Shown here: piece after piece, positions 1,064 to 53,600 of the stretch
How the letters are laid out: each line of letters opens with the position of its first letter
Position numbering within the stretch: position 1 is the first letter of the stretch
Assembly (NCBI GenBank): GCA_037893225.1
Contig: JAZGUH010000370.1
Location: 1,240,001-1,304,000 of the forward strand
Reading direction: 5' to 3'
Length of the DNA: 64,000 bases
DNA from: Hippasteria phrygiana
Taxonomy: Eukaryota > Echinodermata > Asteroidea > Valvatida > Goniasteridae
Position numbers and translations under genes: made by a program
Notes under the pieces: generated by a model
Seen by the model: the letters and a program-made list of their open reading frames with translations, nothing else
What the model was told of the DNA's origin: nothing
Database searches by the model: none

Positions 1064-4000
1064 GTAAATCGGCCTTTGGGGCCAAATTTACCTAAACATA
1101 GCGTGACCTCAGGATTTTTTTTTAGATTTTAGGTTTTAGGTAATTTCATGAAAAATACAGATTTTTTTGAGCAAAATATTGATTTTTGGCTTTCTGAGTA
1201 CTGAAATGATTTTGAAAAGGTTGGCCGCTCTGGGCTACTGTTCACATTTGACTGCAAAGAATTCGTCCAAGTCGGACATTATTCAAAGCATGTACACTCA
1301 TAATTTTCCCAGCAGTGGGTTTGCGGCGCCCGAGTCTCAAAGGTCAAAGGTTATTCGGGATAAAATTGCTGACGTAATATCACGCCATGTTACGTGAATG
1401 CCCATTCTGATTGAATTTTATCCCGAATGACCCGCGTGACCTAACGCGCGCGTGTGTGTGAATGCAAAAGGTGGTCGCGCAACACGCACGTGTTAAATTC
1501 TGATTGAAGTTGTGCAACCACATTTTGCGTTCACTCACGCACGTTAGGTCACGCGGGTCATTCGGGATAAAATGCTATTGTGCACATGCGCAGTTGAAAT
1601 ACCGAACTGGCTTATTGTCAGGATTCTTATGGCAGGATTTATATTGATTTTAGGTATTTTTTTTAAACAATCTCTTTCGAAATCTGCAATTCCTGAGGTG
1701 TTGTTTCACTTGTAAAAGTGGATATAGACCAATAGTAACGGGTATTTTAAGGGGTGCCTTTAGGCAAATACAAACCATAGACCCTGGGGTCTTCGGCGAC
1801 CCCCCAAACACTGCAGATTTTGTGGATTTATTTTAATTAATTTTTTTATTTATCTCACCCCTGACAAAAACCTTTTTGTTTTCGACTCGTAGGAATTTAT
1901 TCAGATGATCAAGAAGTCGCACATTCCCATAATCTGCATGTGCAATGACCGGAACCATCCTAAGATAAGGTCACTGGCCAATCATTGCTTTGACCTCCGC
2001 TTCTATCGACCTCAGGTCAAACAGATCAAGGTAAAGTACCAAGAGTAAAACTGCATACTTCACTTTCAACCGTACGACTTTTCTAGTCCTGCTGGGCATT
2101 TAAAGGTTCATAAAAATTCCGAGGAACTATTCTGTAGATGGATTGAGCACCATTGATTGAAAGTTAACCCTTGCTCTTGTTTACACTCCAACGCACTTTA
2201 ATATTCGCCCCCCAAAAAATGCATGGTCTTCCAATAACTGTCACATTATTTCCAATGGGGAGTCCTTGTACACTCCAAGGAATGCCAAAGGAAACTGGAG
2301 GATAACTTGGTCATGCTGTGAGTAAACAGTGTATTACATTGATAAGCAAAGCCACATGCCATAATCCTCTGGAGTGAGATGGAGGGTATGTCTAAAGCCG
2401 CGTTCGCATTGGACTTAAAATTGTACAAAGTTACCGTGCGTAATTGTTGAACATTCCACTGTGGTTATTCTTCCGTGCGTCCGCACTTGGATTACACTGC
2501 TCGCAGAAAGTCCTTGGCACATATAAACATTGCAGTGTTCAAAATGCACATTTTTACATTTACAGTGGCTGTCCGCACTGGACTTTCATCACAAGCCCTC
2601 CAGTCCTAATCCCAATCACAAGCTATTCATATGAGCTTTGACAAAGGGATTACTTTGTCATTGTTCATCCAGTTACTTGTGACCGGCTTTATGAAAGGAC
2701 TTCTGACTGGACTTGCGAAAGGACTTGTAAAAGGACTTGCAGGGACTCGACTACAACTCTGCCTAATAGTCATCGGTTGAATAACTATTAAGAGTCAATT
2801 GTTCTGCATTACCTTGTTTTTCTGTGTATACAAAAAAGAAAGATATTTCATATGGTATATGACAGGCGTATTTTTATATCCTCGCTCAGGGAGCAATGCT
2901 GTCTATTGCCTTCAAAGAGGGCGTGACCATCCCGCCCCTCGCCATGGACCACATTATCACAGCTTCCAATCAGGATATCCGACAGGTACATTATTTTTGG
3001 GCCTCTTTTTTAAGAATTTCGCTTGAAGATCTGACATGACAACAAAAGGGTGTTAAAAACGTCATATCCCACATCACAGCAGTCAACAATTGTTTTGTTA
3101 TATCGCTAATAAAACACAATTTTTTTCAGTTCAACTTGCCTTGCTCGGTGGAAATTAACTCAAACAAATCACGCGATCAAAACAGCTGATCGTCTGCTAG
3201 TCCGCTGCTCCCACTATAGTTTACTATCGTCAACAGTGTAGGTGAAAATTGCGTGGGTACCATTGATACAGCTCAATAGCTAGCTGGCTGATGTGTGATA
3301 TCATGCTTGGAGTGTGCCATGCATTTTTATAGACCGGGCACGTGATCGTTCTAGGCCAATCAAAATACAGTATCCAAGACGGAGATATAACAAAGTCATT
3401 TGTCTGTGTTCTAGGCTATCACGCGCCATTTTTTGATAACACGTCTCGATTTTGTGCACAAGAATTTTTAATTTTTTAATTTTTATTTTTTCTGCAAAAA
3501 TGAAACGAAAAACTTTACAACCTGGAGTCAGAACTTGGGTCTGCAACACCAATGCCATGTTTACCAGACTCGGGGTCTACTGGTCCAGTGCCACTTTTCA
3601 GCCCCGTATAAAGGGGCGTGCTTATTATTGGCTCCGAGCATAAGTTAATCAATTGTGATCGATATTTTGTGACTCGTAACAGGTGCTGCACAACATGAGC
3701 ATGTGGAGTGCAGGAATGAAGAAACTCAGTCAGGATCAGGTGGACTCGGATGCCGAGAAGGCCAGGAAAGACCTGAAACTGGTTAGTTAATGGTTAAACA
3801 GTCATTAAACCTAGTAATGGCAGGTAGTGAGTTTAGTAGTGAAACGGCCAAGAAAGACTTGAAACTGGTTAGTTAATGGTAATAAACAGTCATTAAACCT
3901 GGTAATGGTAGGTAGTGAGTTTAATAGTGGAACGGCCAAGAAAGACTTGAAACTGGTTAGTTAATGGTTAAACAGTCATTAAACCTAGTAATGGCAGGTA

Positions 4001-7000
4001 GTGAGTTTAGTAGTGGAACGGCCAAGAAAGACTTGAAACTGGTTAGTTAATGGTTAAACAGTCATTAAACCTAGCAATGGCAGGTCATGAGTTTAATAGT
4101 GGAACGGCCAAGAAAGACCTGAAACTGGTTAGTTAATGGTTAAACAGTCATTAAACCTAGTAATGGCAGGTCGTGAGTTTAATAGTGAAATGGCCAAGTA
4201 AGACCTAAACCTGGTTAGTTGATGGTTAAACAGTCATTAAACCTTGTCATGGCAGGTCGTGAGTTTAACCAGTTCGAGTCGGATGACGAGTTAACATGCA
4301 AAAGTTTTGCGTGATAAACACGCACTCGACCGGTAGACCGGTATCTATCTGTCAGCGACCCGCTTGCAGCGAGCGAGGCCGGAAATATCAGGGTGTTCTG
4401 CCTGCAGATTACGGCCTGATTCTGCCTGAACCGGTCTGGCATCTAGGCTCGGGAAAAAAATTCCCGCGGCTGGGTCCGTTAATGTCAAAATAATCCCGAC
4501 GTGAACTGGTTAATAGTGAAATGGCTAAGAAAGACTTGAAACTAGTTAGTTAATGGTTAAGCAGTCATTAAACCTAGTCATGGCAGGTCGTGAGTTTAAT
4601 AGTGAAATGGCCAAGAAAGACTTGAAACTGGTTAGTCAAATCGGAGCAGTTTATAGAGTCGGGGAATTATCAGGTCGGAGAAACTAGACTTTTTCCAACT
4701 AATGTTGGCTGATAATCGTTGGAAAAATGATACAATTTTCCACTTTTCTTGAAAACGACAGCATACCAGGTGCCATGATTTCACAGGATGCTCGAGACTG
4801 CTATTTACTTACAGTCTAGCACGGTAATTCGTAATAATTCAGTAGTTTTGTTTTTTGATGTTTGCAAATGTTGCATACTACCTTTAATGCATCGAGGACA
4901 TCAAGTCTCAAGTAGGAATATTCTGGCTGGGCTCTGCTGTCCTCAATCCTACAAAATCCTCTGAAACCTTGGACGATGGATTTTGAAGGGTTCCGAGCAT
5001 TAAGGTCTAACCTTTAGGGGGACAAGTTTAATATTACCTCGGGGGTTGAATACCAAATGGAATTATGCAATGTTGGCTTTTACGTTTTGATTTTAGGATA
5101 TAAACCCGTTTGTCCGAACTGTTTCTGCCGCAGGGCCCATGGGACGTCCTGAAGCAGGTCTTTGCCTGTAACGAGGAGGCGTTGAAGATGACGCTGATTG
5201 ACAAGATGGCGCTGTTCTTCCACGATTACTCCATCGCGCCGCTCTTCGTTCACGAAAACTACCTCTCGGTCGCTCCTAAGAAAGCCAAGTAGGTCTCAGC
5301 GACGGTGGAAGTTACCCCGCCTGGGTCTATAGGTCTAAAAATTGGGATAATTTCTCCGGTATCTGTTGAAGATTTATCCTCTATTTAGATCTGGACCCAG
5401 GAAAACCGTAAGGGTGGTAGGGCTGGGAACCTGGCCAACATCACTACCTCTGTTGTAGCCCTTGACCTAGGGTGGCTTGTAAAAAAAATATTGAAAAATA
5501 TTGGAAAATATATATTTAAAAACAAAAGTTGATTTCACATGCCGCTTTCGTTGCAAAAGTTTTTAACTGTAGGCCTTGCATAAATTAGATTTTATTATGC
5601 AAAGATTGATTCGAATTTGCCTGCCAGTAGCGGTATACAATCAAAAGGGGGCGCTTTGAATGTGGACATTGGTGTTCAGGTTGAAAACAACTGGTTAAAA
5701 AACTGGTTAGTTGAGGGTTAAACCATCATTAAACCTAGAAATGGCAGGTAGTGAGTTCAATAGTGAAATGGCAATTTGAAGCTGGTTAGTTGAGGGTTAA
5801 ACCATCATTAAACCTAGTAATGGCAGGTAGTGAGTTCAATAGTGAAATGGCAATTTGAAGCTGGTTAGTTGAGAGTTAAACCATCATTAAAACCTAGTAA
5901 TGGCGAGTAGTGATACTTGGTTAAACCAGGGAAATGATTTGTATTCGTGGTAGGGGTGATGCTAAGAAACATTTGGATCTTCTCAGCGAAGCAGCGGACA
6001 GCATCTGCAACGGTGATCTGGTGGATCGAGCCATCCGCAGCAAGCAACGATGGAGTCTCCTACCAACACAGGTCAGGGAGCATTTTATATTGTCTGGATG
6101 CGGTATCGATTGCGGTACCGCTGTTTTTCTGTGCGGCGCCGCATTCCCGTACCTCAAACCTTGCTGATGAATGGGAAGCCAGGCGGCTTGTTTTAATCAT
6201 TTTGTTGTTTTAATCATTTTGTTGTTGGTCATTCACTTTCAGTCGTTTTTAGCTAGGGATCTCTGTATTTTTACTCTTTGAAATATTTCTTTTAAGTGAA
6301 ATTTTCTTCATGTTTTTTGCCAATTTTTTAATGCAATTTTAGATTTGTAAAACATTGCTACTATTTTAACCCTAAGCATTCTTACTAGAAACCTTCCTCA
6401 ACCCGTCAAATTCCAACGCCATGTTTGACTGTTGCTGGTTAACAATACCCAACCCGTCAAACTCCAACAGCCCACTTGCCATAACAGTACACAACCCGTC
6501 AAACTCCACCACCCCCTTAGCTGTTGGATTTTGATTGAGTGGGTACACTTGGCCAAATGCACAGCATGAACAATGGGGACATACAGTACCCATCCCGTCA
6601 AAATCCAACAACTGTATTCATGTGCAAAATATTCAAGCCCTAATTATGCAACATACATTATTCAATGTATGTGTTCCTTAGAAGTATTATATAAGACACC
6701 ATTCAAGCTGTTTATTCCATTGTTTGGTCTACCTCCGTACCCTATTGTTTAGTATAATGTCAAACAAAACATAGAGCCACACACACATCCCAACACCAGA
6801 GCTCTATGTAGCCATTGCTCGAACCAACCTTCCCCGATCAGTCAAAACCCAACACTGTTACTGTGCAGCTACAGTACCCATCCCGTCAAAATCCAACAAA
6901 ATCCAACACCACATCAAAAGTACACAGTACCTAACCCGTCAAATTCCTACGAAACCTGGTGTTGGAGTTTGGCTGGATGGGGATTGTTAGGGTTGAAGCT

Positions 7001-10000
7001 GATGTAACTGCTGTGCAATTCAACCCTTGGGCAACCTGTCTCGTTTGTAGGCGATCTTTGCCAGCGTCCTTCCCGGCGAGACCATGAAGGGTTACATGCG
7101 GGGTATGATCGCGTTCCCCAGCTGGTTAGGAAAGAACTCGACCAGGAACAAGAACCGAAGATTGCTCCAGGAGATTCAGCAACACATGAGACTGTCGTAA
7201 GTCATGCCCAAAAACTTGAATCATTTTACCCCTTATGTCCGGCTGTTATTGATGGGGTGCTGGTATGCTGAGACGGGCTTGTGCAGCCAAGCGTAATGCA
7301 AACAATAGGCAAACAATTAATTGAGTATGTGCAGGAATGTGCGTATGGATGACAACCGGCCAGGTGGTCTTTTTCAAACCGCAGCTATGGCCGTCGTCCG
7401 TATTCCAAAGGTTAGGCCTAACCCTTGTTTATTGGCTTTCCCCAGTATTATTCAAGCATAAAAACATTTATGCAGAAAAAGCAGCTGACTGCTTGTTGAA
7501 TGGTTGCATTTTCAACCAAATATTTCACCCGCAAGAATTTATTGAAAAGGAAAATGTGTGTGAGGTTTGTTCCATTGAACTTATTCTTTCATATGGTGTA
7601 AAAATTGCTAAAATAGCAACAGTTACTTGCTATTTTCTCTTCTGGCCCACTTTATCAAACAGGAAACTTACTTTTTCAAAGTAAACAAAGAAAACTGGCA
7701 GGAGCGGGATTCGAACCTGCGACCTCCGGAATACTGTACCGTCGCTCTACCAACTGAGCTATCTTGCCCTATGTTGGCGGTCTCCCAAATTGTCAGTATC
7801 TTTGTTCGGGTGGGCGCTAGTCAGAAGTCATAAACCCAGAATGCCGTATAGCCAGGGATCACACCTAATTTTACGATACTGGGAAGCGACATTGTGGGGA
7901 TCACTCAATGAGGATACGACTTTTTTACTTATAATTCGTCAAACAATCCACAGGAAACGTACTTGTTACATGAACACATAGCTCTCCATACACACTGTAC
8001 AGGGAAAGTTCAGAAAGAGTTTCGCAAAAATATTGTAATGGTGACACATGAATTTGCTAGCACCATCGGAAAGATCCGAACAAGCTCTTTCTGTTGGTAT
8101 AAAGATCATGTATGGACAGCGAAAAACGCCAGCACAGTTCGTTGAAACATGGTGAATATATTTGTTGTTTGGATACTCTGGTGTGTGGTTTCCTTGTCGA
8201 GTAAACTCGACATCGGTTAGGCCAGGGTTAATCCCCCATCCCCGTATCCGAAGCTGTTTTGCAGAGAGGAATCACAAAGACTCCATAAATCTAAAAGAAT
8301 TATACAAATCCTCCTTGAGAAAGTTGTCAAATTTGTTTCCTTCGTTCGTTTGCACATCAACCCTCAGTTCGTCAGGTAGCCTCAACGACATCAACTTTGA
8401 TTACGTGCCGCGTCTGCGGGACTCGCTGACCCGACCCCTGCTGACCCAGGGGTCGGATGGCGTGTCGGAGGTCGTGGAGTTGCTGAACAGCTACGACCTG
8501 ACGAGAGAGGACTTTGACACGGTGCTGGAGGTCGGCCAGTTTGAGGGCCGGCAAAAGCCGATGGCACAAGTCCCACCAAAGGTTAGTAAAGTTCTTGTCA
8601 AATCAAATTGTGTGCCTAGATGCTGGGAAAACAAAGAGAAAAAATTATGTTCTTGTAGTCTGGTTCCCTGACCCTACTTCAGTCAACACAGACCAACTCA
8701 CAGACGTCAGGGAATTATCAGGTCAGGGAACTAGACTAGCTGGCTGGCACCCGTTCACAGATGTGTAACCAATTGCCGAACAAAATGCGGACTAAGTTGA
8801 TAAATTGGGGGCAGTATTTAAAATTGATAAAGAAATTCCACTTTTCTTGAAAATGACAGCACACCAGGTGCCATGATTTCACAGGATGCTTGAGACTATT
8901 ATTTTACTTGCAGTCGAGTGAGGTATTTCATAATAATTTGGTAGTTTTGTTTTTTGATGTTTGCAAATTGTTACATTATTAGCTTTAACAGCTCCATGAT
9001 ATTGTGCATAGTGCATTGGTTGTCATACTGGTGTCATACCTCAACAAAGTGTATCAGTACGCCGCATAAAAAAATAGTTCCAGTATATCAGGACTTTGTT
9101 GTGGTTATCGTAGGTCAAGGCAGCTTTCACCCGCGCGTTCAACAAAGAGGGCCACATGGTCCCCTACGCCTATGGTGATATCAGCAAGAAACGTAAAGGC
9201 GCCGTGGCAACGGACGATGCGGAAGGCTTTGGGGAGGCAGAGGAAGGGGCGGAGACTGTCATAGAGGAGGAAGGCAGCGACGACGACATCAGCAAGAACG
9301 CCATGGTTAAGGTCAGTAGGCACGACTTTTGATGTCCATAAAATAGGTTTATAGCAGGGCTGTAGTCGAGTCCATCACAAGTCCATCACAAGTCACTGCA
9401 AGTCCCTGCAAGTCCCTGCAAGTCCATCACAAGCCCTCCAGTCCTAATCCCAATCACAAGCTATTCAAATGAGCTTTGACAAAGGCATTCCTTTGTCATT
9501 GTTCATTCAGTTACTTGTGACTGGCTTTATGAAAGGACTTCTGACTGGACTTGCGAAAGGACTTGTGAAAGGACTTGCAGGGACTCGACTACAGCCCCTG
9601 GTTATTAGAATTGAAATCTGTCGAAGTGAAGTATCAGTTCGGCTTGAAGAAAAGTTATAACTTACCAACATTTGTCATTTTAGTGGGTGCGTTCGAGTAG
9701 CTCACCCGGATCGACTCGGGTCAAGGCAGACAGGTTAGCCCCGAATGCCGTGCTAATCGCACGCCCAAATGCGTTCTGTCACGATCCTCACATGATTGCC
9801 GCAGTCGTAGCCATTAACAAAACGCCCTTTTCAGACCGAGGTTTACTTTGAGGTTTACTGCTTTTCCGTTAATCACAAAAGTGGATTAACAGTTTCTAAA
9901 GTCGCAATGAGCTCAATAAGTAATTGTTTAAACTTCAAATAAAGTTGGTTTTTAGGCACAGCTTATCTGCAGTCCGGCCGCAGTATTTATCCCTTTCTTG

Positions 10001-11064: not shown

Positions 11065-11283
11065 TTAACCCTAACCCCTGGACATTTTTACAAGGAAGTG
11101 TCCGCAACCTGTCCAAATCCAACACTGTGAAGTATACCTATGGCACATTCTTTGTACTTAGACAAATTGGGGCATCATAGCTCCATGTAAAGTAATGGTG
11201 CCAAGGCGCTACCGTCCTGAACCCATCAAAATTCAACACAACCTGCTGTTGGGGTTTGTAAGGCTTGGGGTAGTTAGGGTTAA
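11065..11283. mobile_element. TTAA/CCCTAA element
   Basis: TTAACCCTAACCCC at the left, GGGTAGTTAGGGTTAA at the right; internal CCTGTCCAAATCCAACACTG. Just downstream of the RFC1 stop. Confidence 0.85.
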
Positions 11284-12424
11284 GATTTATGCAAATTTAA
11301 GTTGAAAATGATACTCGGGGGCGCCGTGGCGAAAAGCTCTCGATAGAAAAACAATTGATAGATGTTTTATTTTGAGCATACGCAATCCCCGTGCATTACT
11401 AATATGCATCGAGGAAGAGTTTTTTTCGCAGAGAGATTCCTTAAGCCTCATTTCCAATTCAAATTTGCATAAATGTCAAGAAAGGTGTATAGCCCTTAGG
11501 CGTTGCAGCCAAATTCAAAATATATTATTTTGTCATTCAAATTCTGTAACAATTTACATACGAAAGGTTTATCCATGCATATCCAATGAGATCTATAGGT
11601 TCAATAGTACATTGCTTCTAACTTCTCGTAAGCATCATGGATAAGATTTCTCTACATTGTTCCTGATTTCAGGATTTCTGGTGAGACGTCTTTATTTCCG
11701 GAAGGTTTTTAGGTCCTTAAATTGCTTTTATCATTCCAAAATGACCTCTGCATCCTAAAACATTCTAATTTATGTTTTGTTTGCAATATTGAACCGTGTT
11801 CTTTTGCAGTTTTTCAGAAACACCATGCAAATCGAATGCCTCGTAAAATTGTTCATTTTCCCTCAAATCTCACCCCAGAAGCGTACGAGATTGTATATAA
11901 AAAAAAAGTTAAGCCCGGCATTGTATTTGTTTCCATCTTCAAATTGGACCGTAGATCTTTTTGTGTGAATACTGACTTTTTATAAGCAAAATGTGAATTC
12001 GGCTATGCTTTATCTGCAGACGAAGGTCTTCCTTGTTCATTGAGAATGAAAATTAACCATCCTACTATCACAACCTATCGAAAAACCAAATCCTCTCCTC
12101 TCCCACAGCTTGTGTATCTCAACCTGTCACTCGATAGGTTTTGATAGATAGGGTAGTTGGCTCCATTTTGGCACCGAGAGAGGGAGGGTTGACGACTCTC
12201 TGTGAAGATGGAATTTGCTTCGGGGATGATGTCAATTGACCTATCGCGGTCGAATCGCGTCAACGCAGCTTGTGAATTATTGTCCAATAACTTCAATTAC
12301 AATTCCACGTGGAACGTGCGAAATCTGAGACAACAAAAAATACCACACAAAATTCCCACAGTGTTGTCTAAGGGGCGTGGTTAACTCGTAAACGGCGATA
12401 GGTCAATTAGTTAGAATTTCCGAG

Positions 12425-17827: not shown

Positions 17828-20800
17828 CTGGCAATGAAAATCGTCCAAAATTTCACTCAAGATTTCGCACCCATGCAAGTGAAAATGTATCCAGAACAGC
17901 CCCAGAGTAACCACATTTTTTATTACAATAGATGACAAATGGTCAAGACGTCATGCAGAAACATAACTCGTACCTCGTACTCATTTTTCTAGGTTTTTGA
18001 AAGGTGGGTATACCCGTTAAAACTTGGAAACAGAACCAGATTTTTCCGCAGCTTGTTTTCGCCGCGGTTAAAACAAAGACCACCTGGCCGGTTGTTGTCT
18101 ATATGCACATCCCTGCGCATACTCAATCCATTTTTGGAGCGTTGGGGGCTTAGTGTATCGGACTCGAGCTCTCGGTGATAATGAGATCGTGGGTTCAAGA
18201 TTGGATGGGGGTCATGGTGCTTGTGTCCTTGAGCAAGGCACTTTGTCACAAGTCGCTTCTCTCCACCCAGGAGTAAATGGGTACCTGTGAGGGCAGTGAT
18301 GGTTATGTGTTCGATTAGCCCATGTGCGCTTAAAATGTAGTGTACACGATTGGTAAACCTTCAATTTTCTTTTACTGAATTATTACGAAATACCTTGCTA
18401 GACTGTAAGTTAATAGTAGTCTCAATCATCCTGTGAAATGGTGGCACCAGGTGTGCTGGCGTTGTCAAGAAAAGTGGAAATGTATATCGTTTTCCAACGA
18501 TTTCCAGCTGGAAATCGTTGGAAAACTGCTCTGTAGCCGTTAGTCAAGGCGCGCGTGGCTACCCGGGACGAGTGGCTCGCCCCGGACATGATGGCGCCAT
18601 GGCATGTCACGCGCGCCTTGACTAAAGGCTATCATCCGCCCGACGGTTGAAAACGAGCGCTGTTTTTCTCTCGTTTTTTTCGCCATCCAACAACGCAAAA
18701 CTACGAACAGGTCAGTGGAACGATATTTCCTATAAAATACTAACCCCCAAATCCGCCCATTTCTGAAAATTGCAACAATGACCAATCATGTACACTGCCT
18801 TTAACTTGCAGCCGGGGCTGTATACTCGCCGGAGAGTTGGGGTTTCAGGAATCATTAATAGGCCCGATGAGCAGGGGTAATACTAATAATATTGTAAGCG
18901 CTGTGATATAGTTTACTATTTGAGCATTCTTAAATGCTGATTAGCCCTAACCCTGCCAGACGCAGCACAGTGCATCTGTGCTGACAGCTTGACCTTGCTG
19001 CACTCTGCACACAAGTCAATGTGACAAAGTATGCAATCTGATGCGTCTGGCAGGGTTTCTAGCCAAAATACCCTGGAGGGTTAGGGTTAGTATTATTATT
19101 AGTTTACCTACTGTGACGCCGAAATAATCTGACAAAATTGTACCTTCGATATTCATGAGGCACTATATTCTTTCTAATGTAGGAATCTTCACGTCCGCAC
19201 ACCACACATACGTTGGCCTTCTCCTGCATGTAGTACGCCCGGTCCAGCCCGGGCATTCCCGACGGCTCAAAATTCAGCCGCACGGTGAAGGGTTCCTGGC
19301 GTTCCACCTCTCCGATGCCTTTCTTGACGTACCACTCCGCTTTCTGTCTGTGGCAGGTGCAGAGCAACTCGCCGTTCGGCGCCAACAGCCGACAGTTGTG
19401 GTACATCTGGGTCTGGCGTGGCTTGTACGCATTGCTCGACTTGTTGACTGGGACCTTCTCGCGGCTTAGCGTCAAAACGTTTGTGTTCGTCCGTCGCTGG
19501 GATGCTTTGTTCTTGTATTTTACGTCCACCAATCCCTGACACATTGCCCCGACTTCACTCCAGTAACCCGCGGAGGGTTGCTCAGGAATTGCGGACAGCT
19601 TTCTGTAGACGATTTCAAGGAAGATTTCCACGGCGACCAGCACGTCTTGCGCCGCGTATTTGATCTGCCGGGGGGACAGCGTGCCGGCCTCCCAGTTCCC
19701 ACAGCGGACGCTGTCGGATTTGTCCAGCGACTCGTCAAGAAAGACCACGGCGAGGTTGCCCAGGCCTCCCGTGAACTTTGACCGGAGGTCCCGCCGCAGG
19801 TGACGGTAGGCCAGGTGTCGGAGGTCCAGGCAGCCCCTCGCCACGAGGAAGTGGTCTTTCAGGAGGCGGTTCGCATCGTCCAGAACAGCCACGCCCACTT
19901 TGAGGATGCTACAAAATCAACCAAACAGAACACACGATTTTGAAATGTCAGTTTCCATGTTCACTGGCTAATGTTCTGAAACTAGCTCGACAAATTTTAT
20001 CCCTTTAAACTCTTGAATACAGACGATGGCCATAGCTGCGGTTTAACAAAAGACCACCTGGCCGGTTGATGTCTATAGGCGCATTTCTGCACTTACTCAA
20101 TCCATTCATTTGAGAACTATATTGTTCTTGAATGGGAGTGTAATGAATAGATGGAGCTTTTTCAAAGAAAGCTTTCATTCGCACGGAAGGGGGCTCCGAG
20201 TGCGATGAATAGGACGACTCTATTCAGTGTGGTGCCTATTTGCATAAATTTACGCTTGGCTGCACAGCCCATTCTTGGCATACCAGCACCGCATCAATAA
20301 CAGCCAGATGCATGGGGTTATTTTTTTACAACGCAAACGAACCTTCTGTCGGCCAGTAGATCCCTTAAGCTGTTGGGCAGACGGAGGCTTTCCAGCTTAC
20401 AAAGCCGTATCAGGACAGAGTAGCCGCTGGCTGTGGCTAGCTGAAGCAGAGCCACTGGTCGGCGCTGGCCGCGCGTCTCGCTGCACCATTCACAATCCAG
20501 ACCAACGACCTGAGGGTTGAAGTGAAAAGAAAAACTGTGATGATAAGACTTGCGGATGCACTGTGTGGCTCGTAACTTTTCAAATCTAGTTTCAATCGCA
20601 CACGTTCTGCATCTCTATGGAATTCTTTGCCTGGTGCATGTTTCCCTTCATCTTACGATCTTTCCTGCTTCAAGAGGAATCTTAATTCCTGCCTCTTGTA
20701 TCTTTGATTCTTTTTTCTTGTTGTAGCTCTGTACTCCGGGAAAAAAAAATTGAACGTTGCCCTCTCACGAGACCCAATAAAACATACCTTAAACTTTGAA

Positions 20801-24563: not shown

Positions 24564-25276
24564 TAGGGATGTCCTGAATATACCGAATATTTGAATAGTC
24601 ATTTGTCAAGCGAATATTCGAATACCTTTTTGTCGGTTCAAATATAAAAAAAAAAATACATATGATGATGATGTTGTTGTTGCTGATGCGGAAAGATTTT
24701 ACTTTAATACCCCCCACCAAAATCGGTAAGGAACAGCAAATCTTGGACAATAACCATCCATTTGTGTTCATAATTGTATACATAAACACTTGGCACAACC
24801 TTTAATTTTGAGAATTTGTTGGGACATTTTAGTGCAATATAGGGGAAGAAAGTTTGTGTTTTCTGTGTTAGAAGTTCTTGGCACCATGTAAAGTCACTCA
24901 AAGTGTTCACATTTACAGATTTTGCTGACATAAATCTTGAAATAACAGGTTGTGCCACATGTTTAGACAGTTGTTATCAAGGAGGGTTGGTTATTTTCCA
25001 AGATTTTGCTGTTCTTGACCGATTTTGGTGGGGGGTATTAAAGTAAAATCTTTCCGCTGATGCTGTTTTAAAGGAAAAGTTACATTGCTTTAGCATGCAA
25101 CAAAAATGTTCATCGAGCGGTCCATAATATCGATCGTCGCACCTAAAACACCGGTGTGCTTTGCAACTTCTTACTGCTGCTGACGCTGAAAAACTTGATC
25201 GGCAAGTATCGAATATTCGGTCAAACCCAGTTTAAGAATAATCAAATACTAAATTATTCGAAAATGAACAGCCCTA
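24564..25276 (+). mobile_element. AATATTCG hAT-like element, copy 1, with a nested element
   Basis: Ends TAGGGATGTCCTGAATA and GAAAATGAACAGCCCTA. Flanks AAAGACTG and AAATACTG match at 7 of 8. Interrupted by 24688-25057. Confidence 0.88.
24688..25057. mobile_element. Nested MITE with GCGGAAAGATTTTACTTTAA ends
   Basis: Inverted ends of about 57 bases, GCGGAAAGATTTTACTTTAA through ACCCCCCACCAAAATCGG and complement. TGAT on both sides (24684-24687, 25058-25061). Confidence 0.9.
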
Positions 25277-26648: not shown

Positions 26649-29600
26649 GTAAGTGCCATTTCAGACAAAAGTCGTTTAAAGTCAAAGTTCGTCGAACAAT
26701 CCACAAGGGAAACTGACTAGGTAAATTTGAACAAAGAAACTGGCAGGAGCGGGATTTGAACCTGCGACCTCCGGGTTACCGTACCGGCACTCTACCAACT
26801 GAGCTATCTTGCCCTATGTTGGCGGTCTCCCAAATTATCAGTATCTTTGTTCGGGTGGGCGCTAGTCAGAAGTCATCAACCTCAAGTCGTATCCGGAGGT
26901 CGCAGGTTCGAATCCTGTTCGGGCCAGTTTCTTTGTTAACTTTGAAAATGTGTTCAAATTTACCTAGTCAGTTTCCCTTGTGGATTGTTTGACGAATTAT
27001 AAGTTAAAAAGTCGTATCCTCATTGAGTGATCCCCACAATGTCGCTTCCCAGGTCGTATCGTAAAATTGGGTGTGATCCCTGGCTATACGGCATTCTGGG
27101 TTTATGACTTCTGACTAGTGCCCACCCGAACAAAGATGCTGACAATTTGGGAGACCGCCAACATAGGGCAAGATAGCTCAGTTGGTAGAGCGCCAGTACG
27201 GTAACCCGGAGGTCGCAGGTTCGAATCCAGCTCCTGCCAGTTTCTTTGTTCACTTTGATAAAGTAAAAGTTATTTGTTTTGGATCAAGAGTCGGTTTTCC
27301 AGTTATGTACATGGTTGGTATTTGCAGTGGAGCAGTGTTACGAGTCCAGGCTTATGAGTCCAGAAATTTAGACGCTGGTCTTGCAGACTAATGTACATTG
27401 CCCATTTACTGCGTTAGCTTGCGAAACTGCTTGCGCCAGCTTGCGAAGCTAAAAATAGCGCAACTAGCGCAGCAGTGGGCAAACGTTCTTGCGAAAGCTT
27501 TTGCCAATTTTATCTTGCGAAATGGCTTTGCAAGCTGTTGCGCTAGTTTTGAACCCGCCCCAAAAATAGCGCGAAATAGCGCAAGCCAAGCTGCACTAGA
27601 CGTCTTTCGCAGTGCATCGCAGTGCATCGCAGTGCATCGCAATGCATCGCAATGCATCGCAAGCAGTGTACAGGCCTACTGCAGGCATGCGCAACGAGCG
27701 CAATGCAGCGCAAGGCAGCACAATCTGCGATTTGTTGCGAATTCTTGCATTTGTTGCACCGGTGGGCAACAGCGTTTTGCAAAAAATCGCAACAAATTGC
27801 AAAATTTGCAAATAGCACAATATATCGTAAATATTTGCGGAAAAATTTGGCGCAAAAATTTACAAAAAAATGCAAGTAGCATAAACGACCAAAGTAGACC
27901 AGCGGATGTAAAGATGGAATTTGTGTCGCGTATGATGTAAAGGAAAGATTTTACTTAATCCTCCCCCCCCTATCAAAATCGATGAGGAACAGCAAAATCT
28001 ATGGGGAAAAAAATCCATTTGTGTTCAGAATTGTATAAACACATGGTACAATATTAAAACGCAGTATACAACATTTGCTTTTGCTGCAATTTTCAGAAAT
28101 GAATGGATTCGGGGGTCAGTATTTTGTAACAAATACTGTAACACTAACCTGATTAAAGTGTTTTTGTGCATGCATGTACAACGTACATGTACATGTAGAT
28201 GCTAGGAAAACAGAGAAAAAAATGCTGTTCTTGTAGTCTGGTTCCCTGACCTTTTCTTCAGACAAAACACAGCAATTTATAGACGTCAGGGAATTACCGG
28301 GTTGGGGAACTAGACTACATTGTATTTCCAGAAATGGTCAGCCGACTATCGCTGGAAATTGATACAAACATTTCACTTTTCGTGAAAATGACAGCACACC
28401 AGGTGCCACGATTTCACAGGATGCTTGAGACTATTATTTACCAGAGTCCCTGCAAGTCCCTGCAAGTCCCTGCAAGTCCCTGCAAGTCCCTGCAAGTCCC
28501 TGCAAGTCCCTGCAAGTCCCTGCAAGTCCCTGCAAGTCCCTGCAAGTCCCTGCAAGTCCCTGCAAGTCCCTGCAAGTCCCTGCAAGTCCCTGCAAGTCCC
28601 TGCAAGTCCCTGCAAGTCCCTGCAAGTCCCTGCAAGTCCCTGCAAGCCCATCACAAGCCCTTCAGTCCTAATCCCAATCACAAGCTATTCAAATGAGCTT
28701 TAACAAAGGCATTCCTTTGTCATTGTTCATCCAGTTACTTGTGACCAGCTTTAACCCTAACCCCCTTGGCATTTTTACTAGGAGGCTTCCTCAACCTGTC
28801 AAAATCCAACACTGTGCAGTATACCTATGGCACCTTCTTTGGACTTGGACAAATTGGGGCATCATAGCTCCATGTAAAGTAATGGTGCCAAGGCCCTGCA
28901 GTACTGAACCCATCAAAACTTGACAAAACCTGCTGTTGGAGTTTGCAAGGCTTGGGGTAGTTAGGGTTAATATGAAAGGACTTCTGACTGGGCTTGTGAA
29001 AGGACTTACAGGGACTCGAATACAACTCTGTTATTTACTTAGTCAACTTCAAGTAAGGCACGTGTGTACACAAAAACATGTACATATCATAAATCAGTAG
29101 TTTTTTTTTTTTTTTATGCTTGCAAATGTTGTACCCGGTTATGTTACCTTTAATTTTGTGACTCGAGTCGGGAAATTTTCGTGCAATATAGGGGAATAAA
29201 GTTCGTGTTTTTTTTGTGTTAGATTGTTCTTGGCATAGTCACTCAGTGTTCACGTACACGTACATTTGTACACATTAACTTTTGCCTCACCTAGGCAGGA
29301 TAACTTCTACTCTCCGATACTGTCAGGCCGTTCAGTGACCCACTACTTGTCGCCCCCTGGCAAAATTGTATCAGATTCGGAGAATAATAACTGACATACT
29401 TTGGCATTGTCACGTTTGGCAATACTCCCAGACAGCTCTACACTTCTGTATTCAGTCAGCGTGACCTCTGTATTGCACCTGACACTGTCATTTCACAATA
29501 GAATTTCTTCTGCAATGGCACCTGCGATTGTTATAGTTATATCGCTGAGCCTTTCGGTCTCAACCCCCAACCATCTGCACGGGAGTGCATGCATAATATA

Positions 29601-32600
29601 ACCAAGGTTAAAGAAATTTGCCATGATGAAGCGAGGCGGGAAAAGCATACAAAGTGGGGGAGCATTCCTCCCGCATTGTGAAAACCGCTCCCCATTAATT
29701 TGGGGGCGCGTGGGACACGGTTGGCCTGAGATGTGGAGCTGGGAAAAAAATATCTGACTTTTGGGGGGGGAAAGCCTGGGTTCGGTTTCAGATGATTGTC
29801 GTGAAATCACTGAGCCGTGGATTTTTATAACAAATTGTAGCAAAGGCGTCCATTGCTGTCTCAGAAATGTTCTGCATGTATCTTTTCATTTATTTCTTTT
29901 TTTTCTTTTTTTGGAAGTGGGGTGGGGGCAATGTTGTCAAGAGTTGGCATTTATAAATTTAGTTTTGATGTGCATGTACATTGGGGTTATTCCATGAAAT
30001 TGAGACAAACACACATTTTGGCATTCCTTGATCATGTAATTGTTTTTCTTGTTTAAACCAAACTGGCTTTAATGATGATTATGGTATGAACTTGAAGAGT
30101 AAAAGGAAGGCTTTCGAGTGATACAAAACATGAGGGCATTATATGTGATATATTTATGTCACCAAGTGTGATGGTGTCCGGGGCTAAATTATGGGGGAAT
30201 AGGCCCTAAAAAACTTACAATGTACAAAGTACAAATAGGGTTCAGAAGTTAAAAAAAATATTAACTATTTCTTTTCTTTTACCTGAGAGGTTATGCAAAA
30301 CTGCATGTAACTTAACTGAAAATTTGGCGACCATTTTGAATTTAAATGCTTGGCGGCCATCTTGGAAAAACAATATAAAAAAAAATTAAAAGGCCCTCAT
30401 CCTCCTCCTTTTTTAAAACACCCGGACGATCAAAGTTGTGTTTAGAATTTAGTCTAAAAAACTCTAAAGTCTTAGACATATTCCAATAAAATGGACATAC
30501 ATACATATGTACATGTACAATGTACATGTATGACCACAAATAATGAAATAGGTCGAATGGTCGAAAGTACATATATATGTACATGTACATGTACACATAC
30601 AGTCTTAAAATTTATATTATGGTTTTTCTTAAAAGTACAAATGTATGGGCTAAAAGCTTTAATTTGATATGACATGTATTTTGTGTTGGTGAACTGCAAA
30701 CTACATGTATATGTACAAATGTATGTATACATGTATGCATTCGACATGTACACATTATGTACAATTTGTACAACATAATACATCACTTTAGAACTTCCGT
30801 GTACCATGTTGGTTAAAATATAGAACTTTGGAATATGATCACAAATATTTTTAGGATGTAAAATTATTACAAATTCCAAAATAGACTTTCCACTGGAATA
30901 ATGGTTGTACAATGTGTGTATAATGTACAATGTACAATGTACGTGTACACAGTCAGAATACCCCAAGGAGCGACCTTACTAAATGTACGTTCATTTGATT
31001 GGTCACAGAACATATTATACAGTGTGTATACATTGTCATAATGTACATACACGCATAATTTAATTGCCTTGTATTTTAAGCATATTTGCTGTAAGGCCGA
31101 GTAAAAAAAAAAACATGTTTCACATCCGGGTTTTCAAAAAAAAGGAGGAAAAGGGGTTTTTAAATTTTAAATTTTTTATTTTCAAGATGGCCGTCATTTA
31201 AAGAAATTCTGGCAACCGTTGGTGTTTCCCTGTTCAAAGACGCATTAAAAATGAAAGAGACATGTTGGACAAGAGAACTGAACATATTGAAAGTGTTTTT
31301 TAGTATGTTTGTAGTAGGGCTGTCCCGAATATACCGAATATTCGATATTCGATCGTCAAGCGAATATTCAAATACCATTTTGCCAGTTCGAATATTCAAA
31401 AAGATATATATGCACGTACAGATACGACTCTGATGCTATTTTAATAGAAAAGTTACGGCACTTTTTGTCAATCGTAACTTTTTGTGGACAGGGGTTTATT
31501 GTTGCCGTCCGTAAAACCCTTGATACAACAGGGGCATGCAAAAAATGCCGTTTGAAAGGTCCATAATTTCAAACGCCATACGTAAAACACCGGCGTGCTT
31601 TTACATGCAATTTTTTTTTACCGGTGCGGCATGCACAGAAAAACTTGATCGGCGAGTATCGAATATTCGAATATTCGGTCAAACCCAGTTTGGAATATTC
31701 GAATACTAAATTATTCGAAAATGAACAGCCCTAGTTTGTAGCACCATATCAGCAAAAAAAAATTAAAAACTTCCGACTCGCAAGTATTTATTTTCCGATT
31801 GACTGGTTGACATTTTTGTTTTTTATACAGAATTTTTCTGTGGTAAATTAATTTGTTTAAATCCAGGCGGCCCTCCAAAAAGGAAGCGGGCGGGGACCCG
31901 AAACATGTTTTTTTTTTTATTTCACCTTATGTGGACAATTTCATTTGCATTGTTCGTGTGTACGTGTACTGTATGTTTATAAATACAATACATGTACAAT
32001 ATGTACGTCATTACATTCTGTATGTTACGCCTGACATTTTCAAAGAGTGTAATGCAAGTTGTACACCTGAGGCAGAGTTGTACTCGAGTCCCCTGCAAGT
32101 CCTCTCACAAGTCCTTTCGCAAGTCCCAGTCTGACGTCCTTTCATAAAGCCGGTCACAAGTAACTGGATGAACAATGACAAAGGAATGCCTTTGTCAAAG
32201 CTCATTTGAATAGCTTGTGATTGGGATTAGGACTGGAGGGCTTGTGATTGGGATTAGGACTGGAGGGCTTGTGATGGACTTGTGATGGACTTGCAGGGAC
32301 TTGCGATGGACTCGAATACATCTCTGACCTGAAGCAATTTTAAACAATCTGGCGCTGGTACAGGTGACCCTGCATGAGCTCTGTAGAGCTCTACGGAAGC
32401 TTATTTTACATGTATGCCATATTTTAGATTTTAGTTAATCTTTAACCCTTTCCTTACCAATGTCGAGTTTACAAACCTGTACTGGACAAGGAAACTACAC
32501 CAGAGTATCCAAACAGCCATGTTTCAATGAACGGTAGTGCTTGTGTTTTTCGCTGTCCATACACGGACACGATCTTTATACCAACAGAAAGAGCGTGTTC

Positions 32601-47600: not shown

Positions 47601-50600
47601 CGTAGTTCTGAGCATGCGCGCGTACATTCACAGGTACATGTACATTGTACATGTATACAGGTACATGTACACGAATATGTAGTTCTGAGCTTGCATACAA
47701 TGTACATGTACAATGTACATAGTTCTGAGCATGTGCGCGTAATTCTGGGCATGTGTGCATACATGTACATTGTAGTACTCTGCATGCTCACGACTGGTGA
47801 GAACAATGGAAAAGGACCGGTATGTCTGCTGCCACCAGTGTCTCAAAAGTCTCGCATTGGAGTTGTGTACCGCATGATACTGAAATGTACAACTTCACAT
47901 GTTTGCTAAAAATAAAATACTTGTACATGTACATAAGTCTGGTTTAATAATTGATTAACCCTAAGCCCACTGGGCATTTTTACCAGGAAGTGTCCTCAAC
48001 CTGTCAAAATCCAACACTGCAGTATGTATGTACATGTACATGTATGGCGTATTCTTTAAAATTCTAGACAAATTGGGGCATAGCTCCATGTAAAGTAATG
48101 GTGCCATAGGCCCTACACAGTCCTGAACCCATCAAAATTAGGCAAAACCTGCTGTTGGAGTTTGCAAGGCTTGGGGTAGTTACAAATGTAGGGTTAAATA
48201 AAACACCAAATTAGTGGGAACAGGCGGAAAGCCGAGTTTCCCGCTCAAACACCCTAACTGGAGGAACCAAGCTGGACAAGCCGGTGGAACATTTATGTAC
48301 CATGAAAATATCACTCATAGTTTTTACAAAAGGGATGTCCGAGAGACTCCCCATTTTCAAGGTTGACACCCAATTTTATTTTCCATTCACATACAAAAGG
48401 TTTTAAACTGAACAATTTAGACATCCAATTTCTCAATTTACAGCTAATTTCCAAGACATTTTGTTTCCAAATCCTGGCTATGAAACCTTGTCTGTAACCA
48501 TTCTTCCTATTTCACATACATGTACATGTAACTTACAATGTACATCCACTTTACAGACAGAGCACGTTTTTCTACATCATCAATATCCGTCTAGTCTGTG
48601 GCGCATCTAAGAGGTCATAAATCTTTGAAGAGAGCGGATCGCCATAGCAATTGTTGCCATGAAAGATGCTGACTTCATGAATTAATAGGTGTGTGCATCG
48701 GAACCGAGTACCCGACCGTTCATGTTAGGGCTGTTCATTTTCGAATAATTTACTATTCGAATAATTTACTATTCGAATATTCGAAACTGGGTTTGACCGA
48801 ATATATATTCAAATATTCGATATTCGCCGATCAAGTTTTTCAGTGCATGCCACACCGGTAAAAAACATTGCACGTAAAAGCACGCCGGTGTTTTACGTAT
48901 GGCGATTGATATTATGGACCGTTCAAACAGCATTTTTTTTGCATGCCCCTGTTGTATCAAGGGTTTTCCGACAGAACAATAAACTTCCGTCCACAAAAAA
49001 TTGCGATTGACAAAAATGCAACATTTGACACTGCTAAGCGCCGTAACTTTTCTATTAAAATAGCATCAGAGTCGTATCTGTACGTGCATACATGTCTTTT
49101 CGAATATTCGAACTGGCAAAATGGTATTCGAATATTCGCTTGAATATCGAATATTCGCTTGAATATCGAATATTCGCTTGAATATCGAATATTCGGTATA
49201 TTCGGGACAGCCCTAATTCATGTCAGGAACCGGTTCCAGATTATGGAATTGAGTACCCGTACAACTTTACATTATCGCGTACATGTACATGTACATGTAC
49301 ATGTACATGTACATATGTACATGTAGTAACTTCCCAGAAAATAAAAAAGGAAAGGTTTCGAAGGTTATTTGTCGGGAATTTTCAAAATTAAAACCCACTA
49401 CATGGGAAACCAGCACAGATTTCATGTTTATGACGCTCACGAAAATTGACAATAAAGGGAATTTTAATACCGGTTGTGGTTTTTGTAGTCTGGGTATGAA
49501 TAATGAGCCCCGACGAGACATAATAGCATGCCTCATTCCACAATAAATACAACTGTATAAAGCTTCTGTCTTTTGTGATATATGCCGGCGCATACACGTG
49601 CCGGAACATGTAATGGCGGAGTAGTGATCATGTTTACTGGACAGGCATGAGATTTTTCAGACTTTTGTCTGAAATCAGACTTTTGAATCTTAGCGAAACA
49701 CATTATTACAACTTCCGGGATTGGAAGTTTTGGGTTGGGTTTCTTTAACCCTAACCCTCCAAGGTATTTTGGCTAGAAACCCTGCCAGACGCATCAGATT
49801 GCATACTTTGTCACATTGACTTGTGTACAGAGTGCAGCAAGGTCAAGCTGTCCCCACAGATGCACTGTGCTGCGTCTGGCAGGGTTAGGGTTAATGGGTA
49901 CCTGGGTTCCCGTATTTTTTTCAATCGGGTACCCAGTTCTTTTACTACCCGTAAATGCACACCCCTATGATTTAACAGCCGCTATATAACATTCTATGTA
50001 CAATGTAGACGGACTGCCAATATTTTCAAAGCTTTGTATAAAAACCATAAACACGGTGATACTTAATCCACCAAAAAACATGGCTACTTCCCACCCTTAA
50101 TAATTACGGGCTAGTTTGCTTCCGTTTCTTGAATAATATCACTTTTAAAAAACACAAAAACCACATTGCATCACTGAATTCCGATTGTCACAAATGTCCA
50201 TTCTGAAGTTGACACAAGCCGTTTCCATGGTGATACATGTAAGTCATTCCTGAATATCACGTCGTTTAAGTAAATAATGGCACCCGAGTGATATCTGGCT
50301 ATATATAGCCCTTTGTTCATTTTGAATAATTTACGGCCAATCAATAATGACGTGTACATAATTTGTTTTACTAGTAACATTTTTGTGGCTGCCATACAGA
50401 CGGTTGCCATGATAACCAACCTTGAGCAAGAAAATTCCATTCTTTTGAAAGTCTGGTTCCCTGTTTGTCTAGGCAAATGTGTACATGTACATGTATCTAT
50501 AGGTTCTTTGAAGTGTGTCGGTGGTTAAATCACCAGACTGTTTTAACCCAAACTACCCCAAGCCTTGCAAACTCCAACAGCAGGTTTTGTCAAGTTTTGA

Positions 50601-53600
50601 TGGGTTCAGTACTGTAGGGCCAATTGGCACCATTACTTTACATGGAGCTATGAAGCCCCAATTTGTCTAAGTCCAAAGAATGTGCCATACGTATACTGCA
50701 CAGTGTTGGATTTTGACAGGTTGAGGAAGCATCCTAGTACAAATGCCTAGGGGGTTAGGGTTAAACATTTGATTGCAATGCAGGTAAATATTTGTAAATA
50801 TTTGTACATACATTTACATGTAGATTCATAAAAGGAGAAACGAAATTTTATTGAACATTTTTTTGTTATGGAAGTCGCTTAACCCTAACGTACGTAAATC
50901 CATCAAAATCCTTCCCCTGTTTTGGAGGATTTCGGCGGATTCAGGATACCTCCGTATTGAAACCTGGGAGGATTTTGATGGATTGAGGATTGTAAGCCTA
51001 GCGGTACTGCAGGATTTTGATGGATTCAGGATACCTCCATATTGAGCAGTCACCAAAAACCAATTTTTTGTGCATGACAAAATGGGTGGATTTTGGCGGA
51101 TTCCGGATACTTTCTAGTCAAGTTACCCAAGGGGTTAGGGTTAAATAAGGCCCCAAAAAATGGTCCGTTTTGAGGAAATAAAATAAAGCGGGCCTCTAAG
51201 GAGGAAGTTGGCGGAGACGGTAAATATTTAATTGGCTTGACCATTCAGCCAGTGTTGGTGTGGAAACCAATCTGTCTTTACAGTCCAACACGTATTTATT
51301 ATTTTCTTTCTTAATTCAGTCATGGATTGCTGGTCTTTATTGTAGGCAGTTTCCATGGTAACGAGACGGTCTGTCCAGGCTTGGGTAATCATCTGATCAG
51401 TGCAAGTTGCGAGGCTCGTTTATTTATTGTCGCGTGCGTGTAATCATCTCTGCAAAGGTTGCTCGGGATTTTGAGGATGGGAATTGTGTAAATATTGGAG
51501 ACAAATTTAATACCAATGTGTACATGTGATTGTACAGCCAGTTCGGTATCCCAAAGGTCAAAGGCTATTCGGGATAAAATTGCCAACGTACATTGTGTAA
51601 TGTCACGCGATCTTACGCGAACACTGAATTTAACACGTGCGCGTTGCGCGACCACCTTTCCCGTGCACACGCGCATGTTAGGTCAAGGGTCATTCGGGAT
51701 AATTTTGTCATTGTGCACATATGCGCAGTTGAAATACCGAACTGGCTTATTGTTCAACTGTTTAGCTTAAATTGGTAAAGTATCTGTAAATGTTTCTGCC
51801 CATGCTCAGTAGGCCCTAATTAATCCAAAACAATGAGAAACATGTAGGTAAGGGTGGGGTGAGGTTTAGGGTGGAAATACAATGTAGGCTTAGTGTTAGG
51901 GTTTGTAAAAGGTTAAAGGTTATTCCATTGCAAATAATTGTATTAAATATAAAAGCACAATTGTGTTGCAATGCACCATGGGTAGAGAGTCGGATATTCA
52001 TGGGAGTCGGTTATTCATATGACAACGTCTGATGGTCTACTGGACACATGTACATTTTTATGATCTTCAAGCCCTGTGACGTATCTCTCTACTTTGTCTT
52101 ACGCACAGGCCAAGCTTTGTGCCTCTATACGATGGCTCGTTTCGAAGGCCTACAGTAGCTCAAGCATCCCCCCAGATATCCGAAATCCATTCTTCAAAGA
52201 CAAAGAGGTGAGTTAACGAGAGCCAAGGACCGGGCCTTAGTTTAACCCCCCCCTGTAGCTGAAAATCCTGACAACCATGGAATACTGCAGCCATATCTGG
52301 GCTGTGCTCCAGCTTGCTGTCTGTCCCTCTTTGATAAGATTCAGTGGCGCGTTTTAAATCTTGTTGGTCAAGGACCTGACATCTAATACCTGGAACCTCT
52401 TCATGTCCGATGCTATGTTGCTTCATTGAGCCTCTTTTATCGATACTATCATGGAAGGTGTTCCAGTGGCCTTTCATCATTAGTTCACCCTTTCCAAACT
52501 TTCAGGCGCTCTACTCGCCTGGTTGTCTCATCACGTCCTTTCACTGTTGTTGTTCCAAAGGCTAGCACTGTGAGAAACTCTTCCAAGTTTTTCCCCTCGT
52601 ACTGCCTCTCGGGAATTCCTTACCTGTAACCTGCTTCCCTCCCACCTATAATCTTTCACAATAAAGCCAGTTCGGTATTCCAACTGCGCATGTGCACATC
52701 AAGATTTGACAATTTCTCTTTCGGGAGAAACATTTCATCGTATGCGTGCAAAAGCTTAGCGGGTACCAGCAAATTCAAAGAGATCGTCGAGTTCTGAAGT
52801 AACATTTTTTCAAAAAACGTTTGGATAGCGAAGTGTTTTCAGGTGTCTTGTGTGTCCAAACTTTTGTTGGAACGAAAGTGTCCATCGTCTTTTCGATTGC
52901 ACAAAAGAAATTGCACAGAATGCAAATTTGGTTACCACGTCCCCCATAGCCTTGTGTGCATTTATCTGCCACGTTTTTCCCGAGAGAAAAAAATCGTCGA
53001 ATCTTGTTGTGCACATGCGCAGTTGGAATACCGAACTGGCTTATAAATTCAAATGGAAAATGATTAGATACTTTCTATCCCTGTGATTTCTGTCTTTTCT
53101 TGTCTTTTGTAGCCCACACCTTGAGTGGCCAATTTGCCTTGTGTTTTTAATACCCAGAAGAAAAAAAATTAAAATAAAAACTTCTCATCACGTTTTCTTT
53201 TTGGTCTGTCTCTAGGGTGAGGACCATCTCCGCCCGGCCGTCATCTACCAGCTATCGTCGGGGGAGTTGTACAGCCGAGCCTGCGCCAACATCTTCCCCC
53301 CGTCCCTCCACCAGTGGGAGGGGCACTGGAGTGTCATCCAGGGGTTGTCGCGACGAGGGATCTACGTGGTGGACGACAAGCGGCAGCCGGTGACCGAGGC
53401 CATGCTGACGCAAACGCAGAGAATCAAACTGGTATGAAAGCTGAGGCATTTCCAGGATAGTTTTCCCCCGGGGGTGGGGGGAGGGGGTGAGAGGAGTTTA
53501 AGTAGTTTAATCATTTTCAAAGTGAACAAAGAAACTGGCACGAGCGGGATTCGAACCTGCGACCTCCGGGTTACCGTACCGGCGCTCTACCAACTGAGCT

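Follow-up and report, generated by a model that had tools for sequence, protein, structure and literature searches.

The window analyzed here is a 64,000-nucleotide stretch of the Hippasteria phrygiana genome (944 Mb in 1285 contigs), corresponding to C370:1240001-1304000, and positions are given in window coordinates unless a locus prefix is shown. It contains exon(s) of an EXD2-like 3'-5' exonuclease on the minus strand (19107-19916) and exon(s) of a CAMSAP CH-domain protein on the plus strand (57834-58112). Of 47 proteins matched by the EXD2-like exon, the best aligned over 95% of the exon at 51% identity, and none exceeded 64% identity. Between these exons, at approximately 27942-29290, four short non-coding DNA transposons lie nested in one another, referred to from the outside inward as layers 1 to 4: an outer inverted-repeat element, a TTAA-AGG element, a CAG...CTG foldback and a CCCTAA element. 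A palindromic repeat occupies 26675-27266, with copies at 7668-7979, at 53514-53853 and in several neighboring places.

Table 1. Coordinates of the nested elements, their target-site duplications and their uninterrupted relatives within the window
Feature	Position	Strand	Details
Outer element (layer 1), 5' part	27942..28053	+	terminal GGAAAG to TTAA target; pairwise alignments with 4 copies
TTAA-AGG element (layer 2), left part	28054..28441	+	TTAA 28054-28057; left terminus degraded
Target-site duplication TTATTTAC, 8 bp, left copy	28434..28441	.	
Foldback (layer 3), CAG...CTG, left part	28442..28750	+	28603-28753 is 93% identical to 9378-9529; 39 other genomic copies scored
20 perfect copies of 10-bp unit AGTCCCTGCA, foldback left arm	28445..28646	+	
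CCCTAA element (layer 4)	28751..28970	+	body 28755-28966; TTAA 28751-28754 and 28967-28970
Foldback (layer 3), right part	28971..29030	+	end CAACTCTG
Target-site duplication TTATTTAC, 8 bp, right copy	29031..29038	.	
TTAA-AGG element (layer 2), right part	29039..29153	+	end CCTTTAA, TTAA 29150-29153; BLAST match to 4834-4873; gapped global alignment to 4600-4890, 8600-8985
Outer element (layer 1), 3' part	29154..29290	+	truncated, without 3' inverted repeat
Uninterrupted outer-family copy (layer-2 empty site)	24688..25057	+	GCTGATGC on both sides, read directly
Uninterrupted layer-2 relative (layer-3 empty site)	8617..8985	+	gapped alignment
Uninterrupted foldback relative	9365..9595	+	layer-4 site is GCTTTATG

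Comparisons of the nest covered the remainder of the window, 29 other foldback loci, 19 other right-flank loci, 80 kb of the adjoining contig and 10 additional foldback copies. The four-level nest claimed in the sequence-only reading is real: the layers and their ends were recovered, all four within a few bases of the positions noted earlier, together with perfect paired copies of TTATTTAC for layer 3 and paired TTAA for layers 2 and 4. The best within-window match of each layer had an E-value of 4e-19 (outer), 2e-40 (TTAA-AGG), 6e-61 (foldback) or 2e-98 (CCCTAA), and chance matches are thus excluded. Together, the four families occupy 10,603 of the 144,000 bases around the locus, and two more nests were found within the 80 kb of neighboring DNA.

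The outer element had been described as resembling 24688-25057 and as split at a TTAA. The split was found on both sides of the inserted DNA: 27942-28051 aligned with 24690-24798 and 29146-29253 with 24798-24910, each at 79% identity in these within-window comparisons and in the same order. The element is not complete, however, as homology weakens up to approximately 29290 and then ends, and the nest copy lacks the final third of the outer family, including the 3' inverted repeat. This truncation indicates some deletion or rearrangement at the right edge of the outer element. The outer family probably makes 8-bp duplications, since two relatives, 24688-25057 and L054:6352-6743, are bordered on both sides by GCTGATGC and TAATTTTT, respectively; inspection of the printed flanks of two others, L054:5798-6188 and L054:2137-2515, revealed no clean duplication. 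In a search for a second haplotype, no second copy of the right flank of the nest (29260-29957) was found among the 40 of 399 candidates scored. In the same scoring, a repeat of approximately 340 bp at 29973-30316 was matched at 86-90% identity by 39 other places in the genome.

The TTAA-AGG element was confirmed as previously delimited, with TTAA at each end, and at least eight relatives occur in the window (beginning at 189, 4634, 8617, 14506, 18802, 42188, 54496 and 55766), the closest at 72-84% identity. The 5' end reads TTAAAGG in five of six relatives and differs in the nest copy, where it is degraded; the 3' end reads CCTTTAA in three of eight copies, including that in the nest, with variants in the others. 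The proposed empty site for this layer was borne out, as 24688-25057 and three neighboring copies of the outer family carry no interruption there. All four other outer copies aligned over the TTAA site lacked an insertion, and the flanks joined across layer 2 aligned straight through the site in these relatives. The empty site reads CCTTTAATTTTGAG in three of the four uninterrupted copies and CCTTAAATTTTCAG in the fourth. Because CCT is common to the right end of layer 2 and to the outer empty site, the boundary between the two elements is ambiguous by three bases.

The foldback lies, as claimed, between perfect 8-bp duplications, with TTATTTAC matching exactly at both ends. Among 29 other foldback copies, a scan that leans toward matches because the best CAG/CTG pair was picked detected, at recognizable foldback ends, 8-bp duplications with no more than one mismatch in 20, of which 12 were perfect. 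The remaining nine comprised one copy with three mismatches at clear ends and eight copies whose best pair did not coincide with both ends of the foldback itself; a one-mismatch pair in one of the eight was excluded from the 20. The empty site proposed for layer 3 was upheld in part. The target string is kept in two uninterrupted layer-2 relatives, 8617-8985 (with one extra T, as in the string noted earlier) and 4634-4888, but alignment across the joint is gapped and lacks a spanning BLAST match. BLAST matches of the joined layer 2 ended at most 6 bases beyond the joint, and a 140-base query of the joined layer-3 site gave no spanning match at E <= 1e-3; a separate, co-linear downstream match was obtained in the relative at 4634-4888, at 4834-4873. 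The flank alignment is weaker here, where the case for insertion of layer 3 is carried by the perfect 8-bp duplication.

Contiguity of the flanks in other copies had been chosen beforehand as the feature that separates a nest from a mosaic. It was clearly found for layers 2 and 4 and, in weaker form, for layer 3 as a gapped global alignment in two relatives. An origin of the nest by rearrangement, instead of by successive insertion, would account for the truncation of the outer element near 29290 and for the missing BLAST match across the joined layer-3 site. Such a mosaic is nevertheless highly improbable given the perfect 8-bp duplication, the TTAA that bounds layers 2 and 4 on each side, and the same-strand, co-linear flanks of the uninterrupted relatives. 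We rejected it on the duplications and continuing flanks, those of layer 3 aligning only with gaps.

The left arm of the foldback carries an array of 20 AGTCCCTGCA units directly after its left end, while the longest exact run of this unit in the 39 other foldback copies was 9. The left end reads CAGAGTCCC and the copy's own right end, inverted, reads CAGAGTTGTATTCGAGTCCC, a difference corresponding to the loss of 11 bases between two GAG triplets. One speculative reading, which we advance only tentatively, is that this copy is an early satellite seed: after it landed, the unit would have grown to 20 copies and 11 bases of the left terminus would have been lost, so that the foldback would now be becoming a tandem array inside the nest. 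With such array growth and terminal loss, the copy may no longer move. A comparable process is described for Tetris of Drosophila virilis, a foldback-like, non-autonomous element in which amplification of the inner tandem repeats gives longer arrays (PMC4079207). Layer 3 shares the non-autonomous, foldback-like form and has inner repeats that would likewise have amplified; the Tetris repeats, as described in that source, are approximately 220 bp and form kilobase-size arrays, whereas the layer-3 unit is 10 bp and its array approximately 200 bp.

The CCCTAA element was likewise confirmed, with TTAA at both ends. Its window relatives are 95% (50765-50543), 89% (11065-11286) and 81% (47955-48182) identical; the nearest of six aligned relatives differs at 4.2% of 212 positions, and four differences are private to the nest copy. 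The flanks joined across layer 4 run on through the site in alignments with other foldbacks, in which it is three bases shorter. An empty site had been placed near 9530, and the foldback at 9365-9595 is indeed uninterrupted there. Its sequence at the site, however, is GCTTTATG and not GCTTTAATATG, so that it falls short of an exact empty site with TTAA. Removal of layer 4 from the nest leaves GCTTTAATATGAAAGG, with three extra bases (ATA) relative to the other foldback copies. None of 39 other foldback copies had TTAA at this position; all 39 had GCTTTATG or a one-base variant of it (GCTTTATC, GCTTTACG).

A TA or TTA duplication was considered for layer 4, since the other foldbacks lack TTAA, and was ruled out by a CCCTAA copy at L058:4474-4695 (C370:1328474-1328695). 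This copy sits in an outer-family element, at a TTAA inside the terminal repeat, and thereby supports a TTAA duplication for the CCCTAA family. Its flank past the TTAA is identical to the uninterrupted L054:5798-6188 for more than 20 bases, and the 11 bases preceding the TTAA contain 2 differences. Alternatively, the innermost insertion could have taken place in an unmodified foldback, at a site other than TTAA (TTTA or TTAT) and with the addition of three bases, rather than at a TTAA that had already arisen by mutation. The absence of TTAA in all 39 other foldback copies would fit such an event, as would the behavior of piggyBac in mouse cells, where TTAA was the site in 93% of integrations and similar motifs were used otherwise (PMC3983033). 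Simple repair of TTTA or TTAT, however, cannot by our reasoning give TTAA on both sides plus TA unless three bases are added. Creation of a TTAA by an earlier 3-base insertion is about equally simple, and targets would be limited to copies with TTAA. Use of a non-TTAA site is possible, but we consider it less probable than insertion into a pre-existing, mutated TTAA.

The ends and duplications of the inner layers resemble those of known superfamilies. Kolobok-type miniature elements have AGG-starting ends, piggyBac-type elements have CCC-starting ends, and hAT-type elements combine 8-bp duplications with CAG...CTG ends. By its ends and duplication, layer 2 would be a Kolobok-type MITE, with a TTAA duplication and with AGG-starting 5' ends in five of six relatives, although the left end of the nest copy is degraded and the 3' ends of its relatives vary. 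Layer 3 would be a hAT-type MITE or foldback, sharing the 8-bp duplication and CAG...CTG ends assigned to that group, but its arms, unlike those of hAT-type MITEs, consist of 10-12-bp repeats. Layer 4, with a TTAA duplication and CCC-starting ends, would on the same grounds be a piggyBac-type MITE. Both Kolobok and piggyBac are listed with a TTAA duplication (PMC6428116).

We infer that the nest most probably arose by four successive insertions in situ, in the order outer < TTAA-AGG < foldback < CCCTAA (probability approximately 0.88). Under this model, the outer inverted-repeat element would have been present first; the Kolobok-type TTAA-AGG element would then have entered it at a TTAA, the hAT-type foldback would have entered the TTAA-AGG element and made the 8-bp duplication, and the piggyBac-type CCCTAA element would have entered the foldback at a TTAA. 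At some stage, the 3' end of the outer element would have been lost and the 10-bp repeat of the foldback would have grown to 20 units. All four would be MITE-like, non-autonomous elements moved by transposases encoded elsewhere. This order, also that of the sequence-only reading, remains the best reading of the duplications, of the flanks of the relatives and of the absence of the insert from all 39 other foldbacks, and we consider it well supported, not proven.

Nesting would not give the order of insertion if two of the inner elements had moved together. The pair most open to this is the foldback and the CCCTAA element, which might have entered the TTAA-AGG element jointly, with the foldback already bearing its insert; the similarly low divergence of the two layers and the lack of a TTAA pre-insertion form among the 39 other foldback copies would both suit joint entry. 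Copies of a single composite would, however, be expected among the closest matches, and not one of the 39 other foldbacks scored (29 and 10 read, of 1252 candidates) had a CCCTAA element at the nest's site. Joint entry is accordingly quite improbable. An adjacency scan of 297 kb, in which matches of at least 45 bases lying within approximately 20 bases of one another were sought, revealed no foldback at the nest's site in any other TTAA-AGG copy. Another foldback does lie inside a layer-2 element at L052:6771-6984 (C370:1206771-1206984), at a different site and with its own perfect 8-bp duplication, CAGCACAC. Next to the layer-2 copy that hosts this foldback, a CCCTAA-like start, TTAACCCTAACCC, follows.

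Five nested pairs were present in 144 kb: foldback in TTAA-AGG twice, and CCCTAA in foldback, CCCTAA in outer and TTAA-AGG in outer once each. None of the five runs in the opposite direction. Three of them come from the nest itself, and because only two are independent of it, the pairs lend weak support to the proposed order, which they do not contradict.

Divergence was considered as a second means of dating. The closest relatives of the foldback and CCCTAA layers were 99% and 95% identical, as against 72-84% for layer 2 and 79% for the outer element (within the window for the outer, layer-2 and CCCTAA elements). In a set of 34 foldback and 6 CCCTAA relatives, which leans toward young copies because 29 of the foldbacks had been chosen as top matches, the nest foldback differed from the majority at 3 of 128 core positions and the CCCTAA element at 12 of 212, 4 of them private. 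Divergence separates an older pair (layers 1 and 2) from a younger pair (layers 3 and 4) but not the members within either pair, and it was rejected as a full ordering. Judged by divergence alone, the CCCTAA element would seem no younger than the foldback.

Nests of this kind are commonplace where genomes are rich in repeats, and the present one is an ordinary phenomenon in a well-preserved and unusually readable example. Insertions of one element into another are directional and give a relative order, and the use of nested insertions as a relative clock is established practice, as in TinT (PMC3014933) and interruption analysis (PMC2517846). Compared with the approaches outlined in those sources, the present case is a single locus and not a frequency matrix, and all four of its layers are short DNA transposons with uninterrupted relatives in one window. 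The nest leaves the understanding of transposition unchanged; it illustrates cleanly how nesting yields relative dates, and the order of activity that it suggests for four of the genome's transposon families can be tested. Counting, across the whole genome, how often each family interrupts each of the others would extend this one locus to a chronology. Elsewhere in the window, two tandem arrays at 3760-4268 and 5703-5913, with units of 86 and 79 bp, respectively, have a common unit core, TTAAACCTAGTAATGGCAGGTAGTGAGTT.
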